The notes under the pieces are model-generated. The model did no database searches, was not told the DNA's origin, and was given only the letters and a program-made list of their open reading frames with translations. The position numbers and the translations under genes were made by a program. A DNA stretch of 38,795 nt. Origin: Nitrospinota bacterium (GTDB lineage Bacteria; Nitrospinota_A; UBA7883; JACRGQ01). Location of the stretch: NCBI GenBank assembly GCA_016217735.1, contig JACRGQ010000053.1:1-38795 (forward strand). The letters are read 5' to 3'. Position 1 is the stretch's first letter; each line of letters opens with the position of its first letter. Shown in pieces: positions 14,493-19,751 of the stretch.

Positions 14493-16274
14493 ATGGAACA
14501 CAAGAAACGGACTCATAACTGCGGCCAGTTGCGGAAAGAGAACGCGGGCCAGACCGTCACCCTCAAGGGCTGGGTGCACACCCGCCGCGACCACGGCGGC
14601 CTCATCTTTATCGACCTGCGCGACCGGCACGGCGTCACGCAAGTGGTGCTGAACCCGGACATCGGCAAGCAGGCGTTCGACGCGGGGCAGGAGATACGCT
14701 CGGAGTACGTCATCGCCATCACCGGCGCGGTGCATGCCCGCCCCGACGGCACGGTGAACAAAAATCTCGCCACCGGCGCGGTGGAGGTGTACGCCGCCAC
14801 CCTTGAAATCCTCAACCGCAGCAAGACGGTGCCGTTCCCCATCCACGAATTCGGCGGCGACACCACCGAGGCGATGCGCCTGAAATACCGCTACCTCGAT
14901 ATGCGCCGCCCGGAGATACAGCAAAAGCTGATCACCCGCAGCATGATCGTCCGGAGCATCCGCAACTTCCTCGACGGCGAAGAGTTCCTCGACATCGAAA
15001 CCCCCATACTGACCAAGAGCACACCCGAAGGGGCGCGCGACTACCTCGTCCCGTCGCGCCTCTATCCGGGCAAATTTTTCGCGCTGCCGCAGTCGCCGCA
15101 ACTGTTCAAGCAGATACTGATGGCGGGCGGTTTCGAGCGGTACTATCAAATCGCCAAATGTTTCCGCGACGAAGACCTCCGCGCCGACCGGCAGCCGGAG
15201 TTTACCCAAGTCGACCTCGAGACCTCGTTCCTCTCCGCCGAGGAGGTCATGCAGATCGTGGAACGGCTGATGGCGAAGATTTGGAAAGAGTTCAAGGGGG
15301 CCGATGTTGCGTTGCCGCTGCCCCGGCTGGGCTGGCACGAGGCGATGCTGAAATACGGCAAGGACGCGCCGGACACCCGCTTCGGGCTTTTGATAAGCGA
15401 TGTTTCGGAACTCGCGGCGAAGAGCAGCTTCAACGTTTTCACCGGCGCGCTCGGCATGACGGGGGGCGTGGTGCGCGGCATCGCGGTGCCGGGGACGACC
15501 GGCTACAGCCGGAAGGATATGGACGATCTCACCGAAGAGGTGAAAATCCACGGCGCGAAGGGGTTGGCATGGATAAAGATCATGGAGACCGGCGAATACC
15601 AATCGCCCATCACCAAGTTCTTCACGCCGGAACTGCTTAACGCCATCAAGGAAAAACTCGGCGCGAAGAACGGCGATACCATGATGTTCCTGGCCGATAA
15701 CGAAAAGGTGGTCTGCGCCGGACTGGCGCACCTGCGGCTGGTGCTGGGCCGCCGCCTGAACCTCATCGACGAGAACAAATTCAACTTCCTCTGGGTGGTC
15801 GATTTCCCGCTGGTGGAGTGGAGCGCGGAGGACAAGCGGTGGGTGGCGCTGCACCACCCCTTCACCGCGCCGCGCGCGGCGGACATCCCGCTGCTGCAAA
15901 GCGATCCCGGCAAAGCGATGGCGCAGGCGTACGACATCGTGCTCAACGGCACCGAGATCGGCGGCGGCTCCATCCGCATCCACAACCCGGAGGTGCAGGA
16001 ACAGCTTTTCACCGCGCTTGGCATCGGCAAAGAGGAGGCGCGCGAAAAATTTGGCTTCCTGCTGGAAGCGCTCGAATTCGGCTGTCCGCCGCACGGCGGG
16101 CTGGCGCTCGGCCTCGACCGGCTGGTGATGATCGTCACCGGCTCGCCGAGCATCCGCGACGTTATCGCCTTCCCGAAAACGCAGCGCGCGGTCGATCTGA
16201 TGTGCGACGCGCCGAACGAGGTGGACTTCAAGCAGTTGCGCGAGCTGCACATCAAAGTGACGGGGCAGCAATGA
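14493..16274 (+). CDS. aspS: Aspartyl-tRNA synthetase (bacterial type)
   Basis: 593 residues. Class II synthetase that charges tRNA-Asp. The N-terminal OB-fold anticodon-binding domain ([23 protein letters not shown]) covers residues 20-105. Class II motif 2 is at about 218-235 ([16 protein letters not shown]) and motif 3 at about 535-552 ([16 protein letters not shown]). A GAD insertion domain fills about 290-420, which marks the long bacterial form. A good CAGGAGAA site and a TATAAT promoter precede the ATG. It overlaps gltX by four bases (ATGA), so the two synthetases are translationally coupled. The short bacterial form of the enzyme in some lineages is non-discriminating (also charges tRNA-Asn); this cannot be settled from the sequence. 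Confidence 0.97.
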
Positions 16275-17665
16275 CCGTCCGCACCCGCTTCGCGCCGTCC
16301 CCCACCGGCACGCTGCATCTGGGGGGCGCCCGCACCGCTCTTTTCAACTGGCTCTGGGCGCGCAACCAAGGGGGAAAATTCATCCTCCGCATAGAAGACA
16401 CCGACAAGGAACGCTCCACGCTGGAATCGGTGGACGAAATCCTCGCCTCGCTGAAATGGCTCGGCCTCAATTGGGACGAAGGGCCGTTCTTCCAGAGCCA
16501 ACGCACAGCCTTGTACGAAGAAAAAGTGGAAAAGCTGCTGCGCGAGGGGAAGGCGTACCGCTGTTACTGCACGAAAGAAGAACTGGATGCCAGCCGCGCC
16601 GCGCTGGAGGCGGCCGGCAAAAAGCCGATGTACAACCGCGTCTGCCGCGAGAAGACAGGCGGCGACGCATCGCGGCCGAATGTGGTGCGCCTGAAGGCGC
16701 CGCTCACCGGCGTCACGTCGTTCACCGATTCGTTGCGCGGCGTGGTGGAATTTAATAACACCGAGTTGGACGACTTCATCATCCGCCGCACCGATGGCGG
16801 GGTGATGTACAACTTCGTGGTGGTGGTGGACGACGCCGAGATGGGGATCACCCACGTCATTCGCGGCGACGATCATCTGGCCAACACCCCCAAACAGGTG
16901 CAGCTTTACAAGGCGCTCGGTTATGACACCCCGCGCTTCACGCACGTATCGATGATACTGGGGCCGGACAAGAAGCGGCTTTCCAAGCGGCACGGGGCGG
17001 AATCGGTGATGGCGTACCGCGACATGGGATACCTGCCGGACGCGATGCTGAACTGCTTCGCGCGGATGGGCTGGGGGTTTGGCAATCAGGAAATATTCGC
17101 CCGGCAAGAGCTGATCGAAAAGTTCTCGCTGGATAAGATCACCATGTCGCCCGCCGTGTTCGATATCACCAAGCTGGAATCGATAAACATGCAGCATATG
17201 AAGGCCGCGCCGGATGCGGAGCTGGCCCGGTTGGCGTTGCCGTTTTTACACAAGAGCTGCCCGGACGCGACAGCGGAAAAACTGGCGGTCATCGTGCCGC
17301 TGTTGAAAGAGCGCTCACGCACGCTGGTGGAAATGGCCGCCGGGGCCGAGTGGTATTTTGTGAAGGACGTGGTTTTCCAGCCGGAGGCGAAAGCGAAATT
17401 TATCACAGCGGGAACAGCCCCCTTATTGGAGCAATCCGCTGACTTTGTATTGGCGCACTCAACTATCGTTCATGACCAATTAAGCGCGGATTTTAAGGAA
17501 TTTGCGGCCAAGATGGGAAAGAGCCTCAAAGATATTGCCCAGCCGGTGCGCGTGGCGCTAACCGGAAGAACCGTATCGCCTGGCGTATTCGAGATGATGG
17601 AAGCGTTGGGAAAAGAGGAAACGGCCCGCCGTCTAAAAGCTGCCGCTAAATCAGCGGGAGGATAA
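16271..17665 (+). CDS. gltX: Glutamyl-tRNA synthetase
   Basis: 464 residues from the ATG at 16271; the frame is open far upstream inside aspS, but [20 protein letters not shown] is the exact N-terminus of the family. Class I synthetase that charges tRNA-Glu. The HIGH motif is HLGG (residues 16-19) and the KMSKS motif is KRLSKRHG near 236-243. The CYC pair near 98-100 with a later Tyr-x3-Cys (YNRVC) resembles the zinc site found in some members. The C-terminal alpha-helical anticodon-binding domain is complete. The stop is two bases before the next gene, so cotranscription with the downstream HEAT-repeat gene is likely. Confidence 0.97.
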
Positions 17666-17667
17666 TC

Positions 17668-18270
17668 ATGCCCCCACTGTTGAAGGAAACCGGTAAAAAA
17701 CCGGCAAAGTACCTCTGGGGATGCGGCGGCCTGATGGCCGTTTTTCTCGTGGGCGGGCTGCTGATGCTGGCGTACTGGCTCTCCCCGGGCCATCTGGTGA
17801 CCATGCTCAACGACGGCAATCCGGCAAAAAAGCGGTGGGCGGCCGATACGCTCATCGGCAAAGGAGCGGGTGCTGGCGCAACGGTGCTTGACGCGGCCGC
17901 CGACCCGTCGCTTGATCCGGAACTGCGCCGGATGGCTGTCTTCATCCTGGGCGAGATGCATTACACCGCTGCGGAACCGCGGCTCATCGCGCTGATGAAG
18001 GGGGGCGACGCGGTGTTGGGCGGACAGGCGGCCTTCGCGCTGGGGCGCATGGGGGATGACGCCGCGTTGCCGGAACTGTTAGGCGCGTATGACGGAGCGC
18101 CGAAAGGGCTCAAACTGAGAATACTGGCGGCGCTGGGTGAATTGGGAAATATGGGCGGCGCGGAGCTCTTGAAAAAAGAGGCGGCGCGCGCCGATGACGG
18201 CCTCATCCAGGACACCGCGCATCAGGCTGTGCTGAAGATGAAGGAAAAACACCCGGACTGCTGCGGCTGA
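17668..18270 (+). CDS. Membrane-anchored HEAT-repeat protein
   Basis: 200 residues. A single membrane segment at about residues 17-40 (YLWGCGGLMAVFLVGGLLMLAYW) follows a short Lys-rich start, so the rest should face the periplasm. Residues 50-195 form at least four HEAT or PBS-lyase-type helical repeats, such as DPELRRMAVFILGEM and GGQAAFALGRMGDDAALPEL. Such repeats bind other proteins. GGGAGGA lies before the ATG, and the gene starts two bases after the gltX stop. No catalytic motif is visible. It may be a scaffold in the envelope, perhaps connected with the bactofilin three genes later, but that is only a guess from proximity. Confidence 0.75.
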   Translation: MPPLLKETGKKPAKYLWGCGGLMAVFLVGGLLMLAYWLSPGHLVTMLNDGNPAKKRWAADTLIGKGAGAGATVLDAAADPSLDPELRRMAVFILGEMHYTAAEPRLIALMKGGDAVLGGQAAFALGRMGDDAALPELLGAYDGAPKGLKLRILAALGELGNMGGAELLKKEAARADDGLIQDTAHQAVLKMKEKHPDCCG

Positions 18271-18275
18271 CGGCA

Positions 18276-18647
18276 ATGATGATAATTTCGGATATCGATT
18301 ACCATTTCGTCCTGCCGCTCAGCATTGACGAGTTCTTCACCGCCAAAATGAAGAGCGACCTTGCCCTCATCATTCCCGACGTGCTGCTGCAATACCGCGC
18401 GGGGGTGAAGCGGCTCGACGTGGCGAAAAACCGGATTTACCTGCACGTCAGCGCGCCGCCGGATCAGCCGCCGAAAAAGATCGCCGAAGACATGATGTGG
18501 GAAACATCGTTGCGGCTGATCCGGGTGAACAACGAACTCAAAGGATTTGTCAGCGTGTTCGATGGCCGCATGTTCATCAAAACCGGCGCGAAGCCGACGA
18601 AAAAGCAGGTTAATGATTTTGTAACGCTTAGTAACACAGGCATTTAA
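18276..18647 (+). CDS. Y1 (IS200/IS605 TnpA)-like protein lacking catalytic residues
   Basis: 123 residues. I see no exact family name, but the whole chain can be laid on IS200-type TnpA transposases without large gaps. DYHFVLPL matches the opening strand, about 43 residues follow, then NRIYLHVSAPPDQPPKKIAEDMMWETSLRLIR lines up with the DHVHLLVS-PP...KG-SSR segment, and MFIKTGAKPTKKQVNDFV with FISTVG...V-YI. The catalytic HUH pair becomes Arg53-Ile-Tyr55 and the nucleophile Tyr becomes Phe115. If the alignment is right, the protein binds nucleic acid but cannot cut it, implying domestication or decay. Codon use and GC look like the neighbours, and the frame is intact. It starts five bases after the HEAT-repeat gene with a poor ribosome binding site. 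Fold assignment is inference and was not tested by a search. Confidence 0.5.
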   Translation: MMIISDIDYHFVLPLSIDEFFTAKMKSDLALIIPDVLLQYRAGVKRLDVAKNRIYLHVSAPPDQPPKKIAEDMMWETSLRLIRVNNELKGFVSVFDGRMFIKTGAKPTKKQVNDFVTLSNTGI

Positions 18648-18699: not shown

Positions 18700-18723
18700 A
18701 TAAAAAAATTAAAAGGGGTGGTC

Positions 18724-19146
18724 ATGAGCAATAAAAAAATGGTTGACCAAGGGCAAATCCGGGCATTTCTTGGCGATGGCACCGAGTTTGAAGGGCTGTT
18801 GAGTTTCGACGGCACGGTTCGCATTGACGGCCGGTTCAAAGGGGAAATACAGACCAACGACACCCTCATCATCGGCGAAAGCGGCCATATCGAGGCCGAA
18901 GTGAAGGCTGGCTACTGCATCATCATGGGCAGCATGGTGGGGAACGTCAGGGCGGCCGGCAAGGTGGAAATCGCCAACACCGGCAAAATCACCGGCAATA
19001 TTTTCACCCCCGCGCTCACCGTACAGGAGGGGGGCGTGATCGAGGGGAGTATTTCCATGAAGAAGGAAGCCGATCAGCCCCACAAGGCGGTACCCCCGCG
19101 AGATGTGGCCTCCAAACCGGCCGTGGCGGATCAACGCCCGCACTAA
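18724..19146 (+). CDS. Bactofilin (polymer-forming cytoskeletal protein)
   Basis: 140 residues from the ATG at 18724; a GTG at 18718 is in frame but overlaps the ribosome binding site AAAAGGGG. Bactofilins form nucleotide-free filaments on the inner membrane that shape cells or place cell-wall enzymes. The beta-helical core (residues 14-112) shows the typical turns: FEGLLSFDGTVRIDGRFKG, LIIGESGHIEAEV, GYCIIMGSMVGNVRA and KVEIANTGKITGNIFTPAL. Both ends are short, polar and probably disordered. It has its own promoter and intrinsic terminator, so it can be expressed separately from the synthetase genes. No peptidoglycan hydrolase gene is adjacent, unlike in many bactofilin loci. Confidence 0.93.
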   Translation: MSNKKMVDQGQIRAFLGDGTEFEGLLSFDGTVRIDGRFKGEIQTNDTLIIGESGHIEAEVKAGYCIIMGSMVGNVRAAGKVEIANTGKITGNIFTPALTVQEGGVIEGSISMKKEADQPHKAVPPRDVASKPAVADQRPH

Positions 19147-19242: not shown

Positions 19243-19318
19243 GCGCCCGTAGCTCAAAGGATAGAGCGACTGACTTCGGATCAGTAGGTTGGGGGTTCGA
19301 GTCCCTCCGGGCGCACCA
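19243..19318 (+). tRNA. tRNA-Arg, anticodon TCG
   Basis: 76 bases with CCA encoded. Acceptor arms GCGCCCG (19243-19249) and CGGGCGC (19308-19314) pair fully. The D arm is GCTC/GAGC. The anticodon stem ACTGA/TCAGT encloses CTTCGGA, so the anticodon is TCG, reading CGA. The T arm GGGGG/CCCTC has one G-T pair and the normal TTCGAGT loop. Its 3' end is repeated at 19485-19505. Confidence 0.97.
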
Positions 19319-19358: not shown

Positions 19359-19505
19359 TTGTTCACGGGACTCGAAGCGAACGAGCGGCCCGACCGGAGA
19401 GGGAGGGCATTTTGCACGTGATGTGCAAAATAGCGAGTGAGGCGGGCCGTGCAAGCCGGAGCGTGATGCGACGGCGCGTGTGGCCGAGTCCCTCCGGGCG
19501 CGCCA
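19359..19505 (+). other. Folded element ending in a second copy of the tRNA 3' end
   Basis: Three nested stems are visible. The outer GGGACTCG (19367-19374) pairs with CGAGTCCC (19485-19492). The middle CGGCCCG (19386-19392) pairs with CGGGCCG (19443-19449). The inner ATTTTGCAC (19409-19417) pairs with GTGCAAAAT (19423-19431) around GTGAT. No protein-coding frame is credible; the long frames here are antisense to the tRNA. The right edge is the duplicated tRNA 3' end. It could be a structured RNA or a small tRNA-targeting mobile element. Confidence 0.65.
19485..19505 (+). repeat. Partial duplicate of the tRNA-Arg 3' end
   Basis: CGAGTCCCTCCGGGCGC (19485-19501) is identical to 19298-19314 of the tRNA. 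The final bases read GCCA, where the tRNA has ACCA. Direct repeats of a tRNA 3' end are the usual footprint of integration at a tRNA attachment site. No integrase gene lies within the 187-base interval. Confidence 0.85.
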
Positions 19506-19541: not shown

Positions 19542-19549
19542 GACTTTTG
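19542..19549. repeat. Target site duplication, left copy
   Basis: GACTTTTG directly abuts the left inverted repeat of the element at 19550-19700 and is repeated exactly at its right edge (19701-19708). Confidence 0.85.
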
Positions 19550-19700
19550 GGTAGTGGGTCAGTTTGAATTATCCCGTTTTTTTCCTCCCCTTGCAGTGCA
19601 AGGGGAGGTGCAGGAGGGGTTAAAAACCTCCCCTGTATCCCCTCCTTGCAAAGGAGGGGACTACTCTGTTACCAAGTTAATTTCAAACTGACCCACTACC
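19550..19700. mobile_element. 151-bp MITE with 19-bp terminal inverted repeats
   Basis: GGTAGTGGGTCAGTTTGAA (19550-19568) is a perfect inverted copy of 19682-19700. GACTTTTG occurs immediately outside both ends, an 8-bp target duplication. The element encodes nothing. Inside are two more palindromes: CCTCCCCTTGCA, G, TGCAAGGGGAGG (19584-19608) and TCCCCTCCTT, GCA, AAGGAGGGGA (19638-19660). Perfect ends and perfect target duplication point to a recent insertion, moved by a transposase encoded elsewhere. Several IS families make 8-bp duplications, so I do not assign the parent. Confidence 0.9.
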
Positions 19701-19708
19701 GACTTTTG
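19701..19708. repeat. Target site duplication, right copy
   Basis: GACTTTTG, identical to 19542-19549, directly follows the right inverted repeat of the MITE. It lies 43 bases before the sensor kinase start. Confidence 0.85.
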
Positions 19709-19751
19709 TCATCCATTCCGCGTTTTCCGCTTGTTCTGATAGAATAAACCG

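Follow-up and report, generated by a model that had tools for sequence, protein, structure and literature searches.

The closest described systems are the transposases (TnpA) of the IS200/IS605 elements and the RAYT proteins (TnpA-REP). In IS608 the metal ligands are H64, H66, D61 and Q131, the attacking residue is Y127, and helix alpha-D is swapped in TnpA (PMC5934647). The RAYTs are the known domesticated Y1 transposases; they retain the HUH and Y---NP motifs and cut REP hairpins (PMC6006769, PMC8266576). A survey of the superfamily states that the HuH and Y motifs are common to all its sequences (PMC6006769), and our searches of the open-access literature turned up no report of a Y1 family that has lost its catalysis. 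The protein analyzed here, ORF X, is a domesticated TnpA without catalytic activity, and such proteins have so far come to light in one bacterial class only.

The window, that is the whole stretch of 38,795 nucleotides that was analyzed, carries X on the forward strand at 18276..18647, encoding a TnpA-like protein of 122-123 amino acids. Upstream lie aspS (14493-16274), the glutamyl-tRNA synthetase gene gltX (forward strand, 16265..17665; Pfam tRNA-synt_1c and Anticodon_2) and, directly before X, a HEAT-repeat gene (forward strand, 17668..18270; Pfam HEAT_2); downstream follows a bactofilin gene (forward strand, 18718..19146; Pfam Bactofilin, 97 bits). Synteny agrees with the assignments of gltX and of the HEAT and bactofilin genes. 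An earlier sequence-only reading of this DNA had described an intact frame in a housekeeping setting, which is what we find (123 codons in the order aspS-gltX-HEAT-X-bactofilin), and had taken the composition of X to be that of its neighbours. This is right for GC3 (0.73, similar to gltX and bactofilin) and wrong for overall GC (0.527 compared with 0.58-0.64). Judged against the orthologues, translation more likely begins at the second ATG (18279) than at 18276. A limited look at the flanks for subterminal hairpins of the kind that lie at both ends of a mobile element showed, on the downstream side, inverted repeats that were all AT-rich or short and, on the upstream side, a coding gene within 5 nt. 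Farther downstream the window contains a tRNA-Arg gene (19243-19318) whose 3′ end, CGAGTCCCTCCGGGCGC, recurs some 190 bp farther on, at about 19485-19505; such a repeat could have been left by an earlier integration event at this tRNA gene.

In a single-sequence search X matched the Pfam family Y1_Tnp (PF01797) with 25.8 bits, the cut-off being 23. The NCBIfam model NF033573 was matched over residues 4-115 with an E-value of 1.8e-6, the score of 28.2 bits lying below the equivalog cut-off of 55. Across the 14 members of the X family, Y1_Tnp was matched by 12, the NCBIfam model by 13 and one phage transposase family by 11. A search of the PDB with the profile of the 14 members retrieved solved TnpAs at E-values of 4.8e-8 to 2e-4 and no other significant match, the sole non-TnpA under E 1 being a beta-glucosidase at 0.69. 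AlphaFold models of the window protein and of a distant family member reached pLDDT values of 90.5 and 88.5, and for each of these two models the top 29 Foldseek matches in the PDB were TnpA chains. The closest superposition was on 2fyx, with an rmsd of 2.0-2.6; the swap of helix alpha-D, which is invisible in a single-chain model, may explain why the rmsd is larger for other TnpA chains. X thus combines the Y1 sequence profile with a predicted HUH ferredoxin-like fold and is, judged by profiles and models, a member of the Y1 (IS200/IS605 TnpA) superfamily by descent. The near full-length alignment with TnpA that had been proposed from the letters alone is borne out by the profile matches and by the predicted fold.

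For the comparison of residues the 14 family members were aligned against 13 canonical TnpAs. In the window protein the catalytic histidine pair is replaced by Arg53 and Tyr55 with Ile54 in the middle, the nucleophilic tyrosine by Phe115, the metal-binding glutamine by Ser119 and the signature tryptophan by Phe95. Across the family the first histidine position is occupied by Arg, Gln, Glu, His or Tyr, and the second by Tyr in the window's own family f1 (with one His) and by Leu or Val in family f4. None of the 14 members has a tyrosine at position 115, which is always Phe or Leu, and position 119 is Ser, Ala, Cys or Val in all of them; the conserved tryptophan of TnpA has become Phe or Tyr throughout. 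A His-Val-His motif at the HUH position occurs only once (G010, L010 1501-1866), in a protein with neither the tyrosine nor the glutamine and with close relatives that lack the motif, and is either a leftover or a return. The f4 members, which also have neither the tyrosine nor the glutamine, carry a conserved histidine in the middle of the HUH site, at position 54, and if a one-residue bulge is allowed this residue might count as the second catalytic histidine. Some members may thus have an altered metal site. Judged from the aligned residues, the active site is dead as a property of the whole family. The earlier calls of Arg53-Ile-Tyr55 and Phe115 agree with our alignment, and the check proposed there, whether the homologues lack the histidine pair and the tyrosine as well, comes out positive for all members save G010, which has the pair and no tyrosine. 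As a control, the other full-length Y1_Tnp proteins of the phylum retain the HxH and Y motifs, the exceptions being short or cut-off frames. Outside the class no X-like dead protein was found in several hundred genomes, a sample of species; the matches there carry HxH except L052 and L097. These two proteins from outside the phylum are otherwise TnpA-like and have the second catalytic histidine changed to tyrosine, the same change as in the X family.

Among the 24 genomes of the phylum that were surveyed, 15 contain exactly one copy of X, namely ten of the eleven f1 genomes and five of the seven in f4, and it is absent from families f2, f3 and f5 of the class, which speaks against an essential role in the class. 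In the remaining f1 genome, G001, X was not found; since gltX is missing there too, this absence is uninformative. The copy of G009 is truncated by the contig end and its upstream genes differ. In nine f1 genomes X is found downstream of gltX, with a HEAT gene called in between in six of them and bactofilin as the next gene in seven; in two genomes the stop codon of the HEAT gene runs into the start of X, and in four the distance between them is 5-8 nt. No HEAT gene was called beside X in G004, G005 and G006, and no bactofilin gene lies beside it in G005 and G010. In f4 X is located elsewhere, and aspS-gltX is followed, where the contig continues, by a gene that we call thyX-like from its sequence alone.

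Within a genus the identity of X (84%) is that of gltX (83-85%), and dN/dS of X is about 0.06-0.11 for the closest pairs, dS being near saturation for more distant ones. All 14 members cluster in a single clade with 100/99 support, whose long stem arises among the IS200-type TnpAs and apart from the RAYT-like proteins, and within f1 the trees of X and of gltX have the same sister pairs. On the gltX tree f1 stands apart from the other families; X therefore either dates back to the ancestor of the class and was lost in f2, f3 and f5, or moved a single time between f1 and f4. A mobile gene would be expected in several copies or at variable locations. Instead we find one copy per genome and, in nine f1 genomes, a fixed site behind gltX. 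The single copy, the vertical inheritance and the purifying selection all speak for domestication, as the sequence-only reading had suggested. Two outcomes had been named that would speak against that reading, namely no profile match together with an unlike fold, or homologues that are decaying copies of an active element; neither came true. That X is a dead domesticated TnpA is highly probable.

The DNA-handling basic residues, which are invariant or almost invariant in active TnpAs, have changed as well. The lysine of the KYR motif is Ser, Thr, Val or Cys in f1 and still basic in f4, the arginine of this motif has become Asp, Glu or a small residue, and the lysine of the LKG motif is Met, Ile, Val or Ala, with Arg in two f4 members. 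The basic residue preceding the TnpA tyrosine is Asp or Glu at position 114 in every member. Whereas active TnpAs have net charges of +2 to +16, the f1 proteins lie mostly between -0.2 and +3.8, G006 is at -12 and the f4 members are at -8 to -10. Newly invariant in the X family are Pro66, Lys102 and, nearly, Gly104, together with the acidic residue at 114; these positions point to a new function.

We propose that an IS200/IS605-type transposase acting on single-stranded DNA was captured once in the ancestor of the class, or shared once between two families, lost its chemistry and was retained as an ordinary chromosomal gene. The protein would have kept the HUH ferredoxin-like fold without the ability for HUH-tyrosine cleavage. 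Possibly the old pocket was turned into hydrophobic packing by Tyr55 and Phe115, and Pro66, Lys102, Gly104 and the acidic residue at 114 would serve the new function. Because one copy has been kept across a bacterial family, mostly behind the same tRNA-synthetase genes, X has probably been put to a new use. A role as a non-catalytic binding module, whatever its ligand, seems the better bet. Since the basic residues of the active TnpAs are gone, a protein is a somewhat likelier ligand than a DNA hairpin, and we slightly favour a protein over nucleic acid in general. To this overall account, in which a dead former TnpA now serves as a binding module without catalysis and its ligand is likelier a protein than a DNA hairpin, we give a probability of roughly 0.6. 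In a more far-reaching version, to which we give somewhat less than even odds, neither catalysis nor DNA binding would be left: the fold would have been wholly turned into that of a cellular protein which passes vertically through part of the class and whose function is linked to the gltX operon.

The strongest competing explanation is that X still binds DNA or RNA hairpins, for instance to regulate its own operon or to compete at palindromic repeats. The predicted fold is indeed that of hairpin-binding proteins, several f1 members including the window protein are mildly basic with a pI of about 9, so that these could carry a basic patch (net charge being a crude guide), and the genome of the window is rich in palindromic repeats. 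One of them, a dispersed MITE-like element at 19548-19712 of the window, has an 80-nt double-hairpin core inside the terminal inverted repeats GTAGTGGGTCAGTTTGAA...TTCAAACTGACCCACTAC. This genome contains nine near-full copies, about ten further copies of the core and additional short matches; its full or partial matches number about 30. Most f1 genomes contain matches to this palindrome, among them G001 with about 30, the genome in which X was not found; in contrast, there is none in G004, in G009 or in any family other than f1. X is thus carried without this palindrome, the only one sought, by G004 and by all five f4 carriers. Two canonical RAYT-like Y1 proteins with HxH are encoded in the genome of the window, L002 (G000:C23:17570-17818) and L100 (G000:C57:18705-18950), and would fit the palindromes better; neither of their contigs bears a listed palindrome copy. 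Positions at which every active TnpA is basic have lost the basic residue in X or turned acidic, and six of the 14 members, i.e., the f4 members and G006, are strongly acidic with net charges of -8 to -12. For these reasons we find no support for the earlier suggestion of a nucleic-acid-binding protein acting on the scattered palindromes, and an action of X on the local palindromes was rejected for lack of co-occurrence. With the basic residues gone, the charge acidic in six members and the palindromes not tracked, the substrate side seems to have been lost together with the chemistry. We consider hairpin binding unlikely, though it is the best of the alternatives.

Less likely still is a specific partnership with the operon neighbours, X modulating glutamyl-tRNA synthetase or forming a bridge between the membrane-anchored HEAT protein and the cytoskeleton of bactofilin. 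The conserved site behind gltX, the close or overlapping junction with the HEAT gene and the bactofilin gene that follows in seven genomes would fit such a role. The arrangement is, however, broken in the f1 genomes named above that have no HEAT or bactofilin gene beside X, the f4 copy lies elsewhere with the thyX-like gene following aspS-gltX, and co-transcription is no proof of interaction. If X is a binding module without catalysis, as we prefer to read it, the candidates to consider first as its partners are its neighbours in the operon.

That X is unrelated to TnpA, a ferredoxin-like protein with a chance resemblance, is very improbable. The single-sequence Pfam score lies barely above the cut-off, but the family profile retrieved TnpAs from the PDB and nothing else below 0.69, which led us to reject convergence; TnpAs rank first for independent models of two distant members, and three transposase libraries are matched by most members. 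Least probable of all is a decaying copy of a formerly active insertion sequence: isolated TnpA-like proteins with the second histidine changed to tyrosine do exist elsewhere (L052, L097), but the frames of X are intact in 14 genomes, there is no active parent element in the same genome, and the low dN/dS, the synteny, the gltX-like identity and the congruent tree refute it. A phage or viral origin was dismissed as well, there being no relatives among phage records or viral contigs, and so was a defence system, there being no PADLOC match.

As the X family shows, the smallest of the transposase folds can be put to another use. Automatic labels such as 'IS200-like transposase' would misname genes of this kind, and the residues lost and gained in X are direct targets for experiments.

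Compared with the IS200/IS605 TnpAs, such as those of IS608 from Helicobacter pylori, ISDra2 from Deinococcus radiodurans and Sulfolobus, X is alike in size, order of strands and helices, sequence profile and predicted core fold. It differs from them by the missing HUH, tyrosine, glutamine and signature tryptophan and by the loss of the invariant basic residues, and it is a single-copy gene at a fixed place that is inherited vertically. With the RAYT proteins (PMC6006769, PMC8266576) X shares the use of the Y1 fold in a non-mobile, typically single-copy chromosomal gene. In contrast to them X is catalytically dead, with neither the tyrosine nor the NP in any of the 14 members and without the HUH and Y---NP motifs that RAYTs keep; in the tree it falls with the IS200-type TnpAs, away from the RAYT-like proteins that its own genome encodes, and it does not track the palindrome of the window, so that the association with REP sequences is lacking for that palindrome. 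If the conversion to a protein that no longer binds DNA is true, X would be a transposase exaptation that, unlike the RAYTs, has kept neither chemistry nor substrate. To sum up, the known domesticated Y1 transposases keep their cutting chemistry, whereas the X family, dead, conserved and present in single copy, does not.
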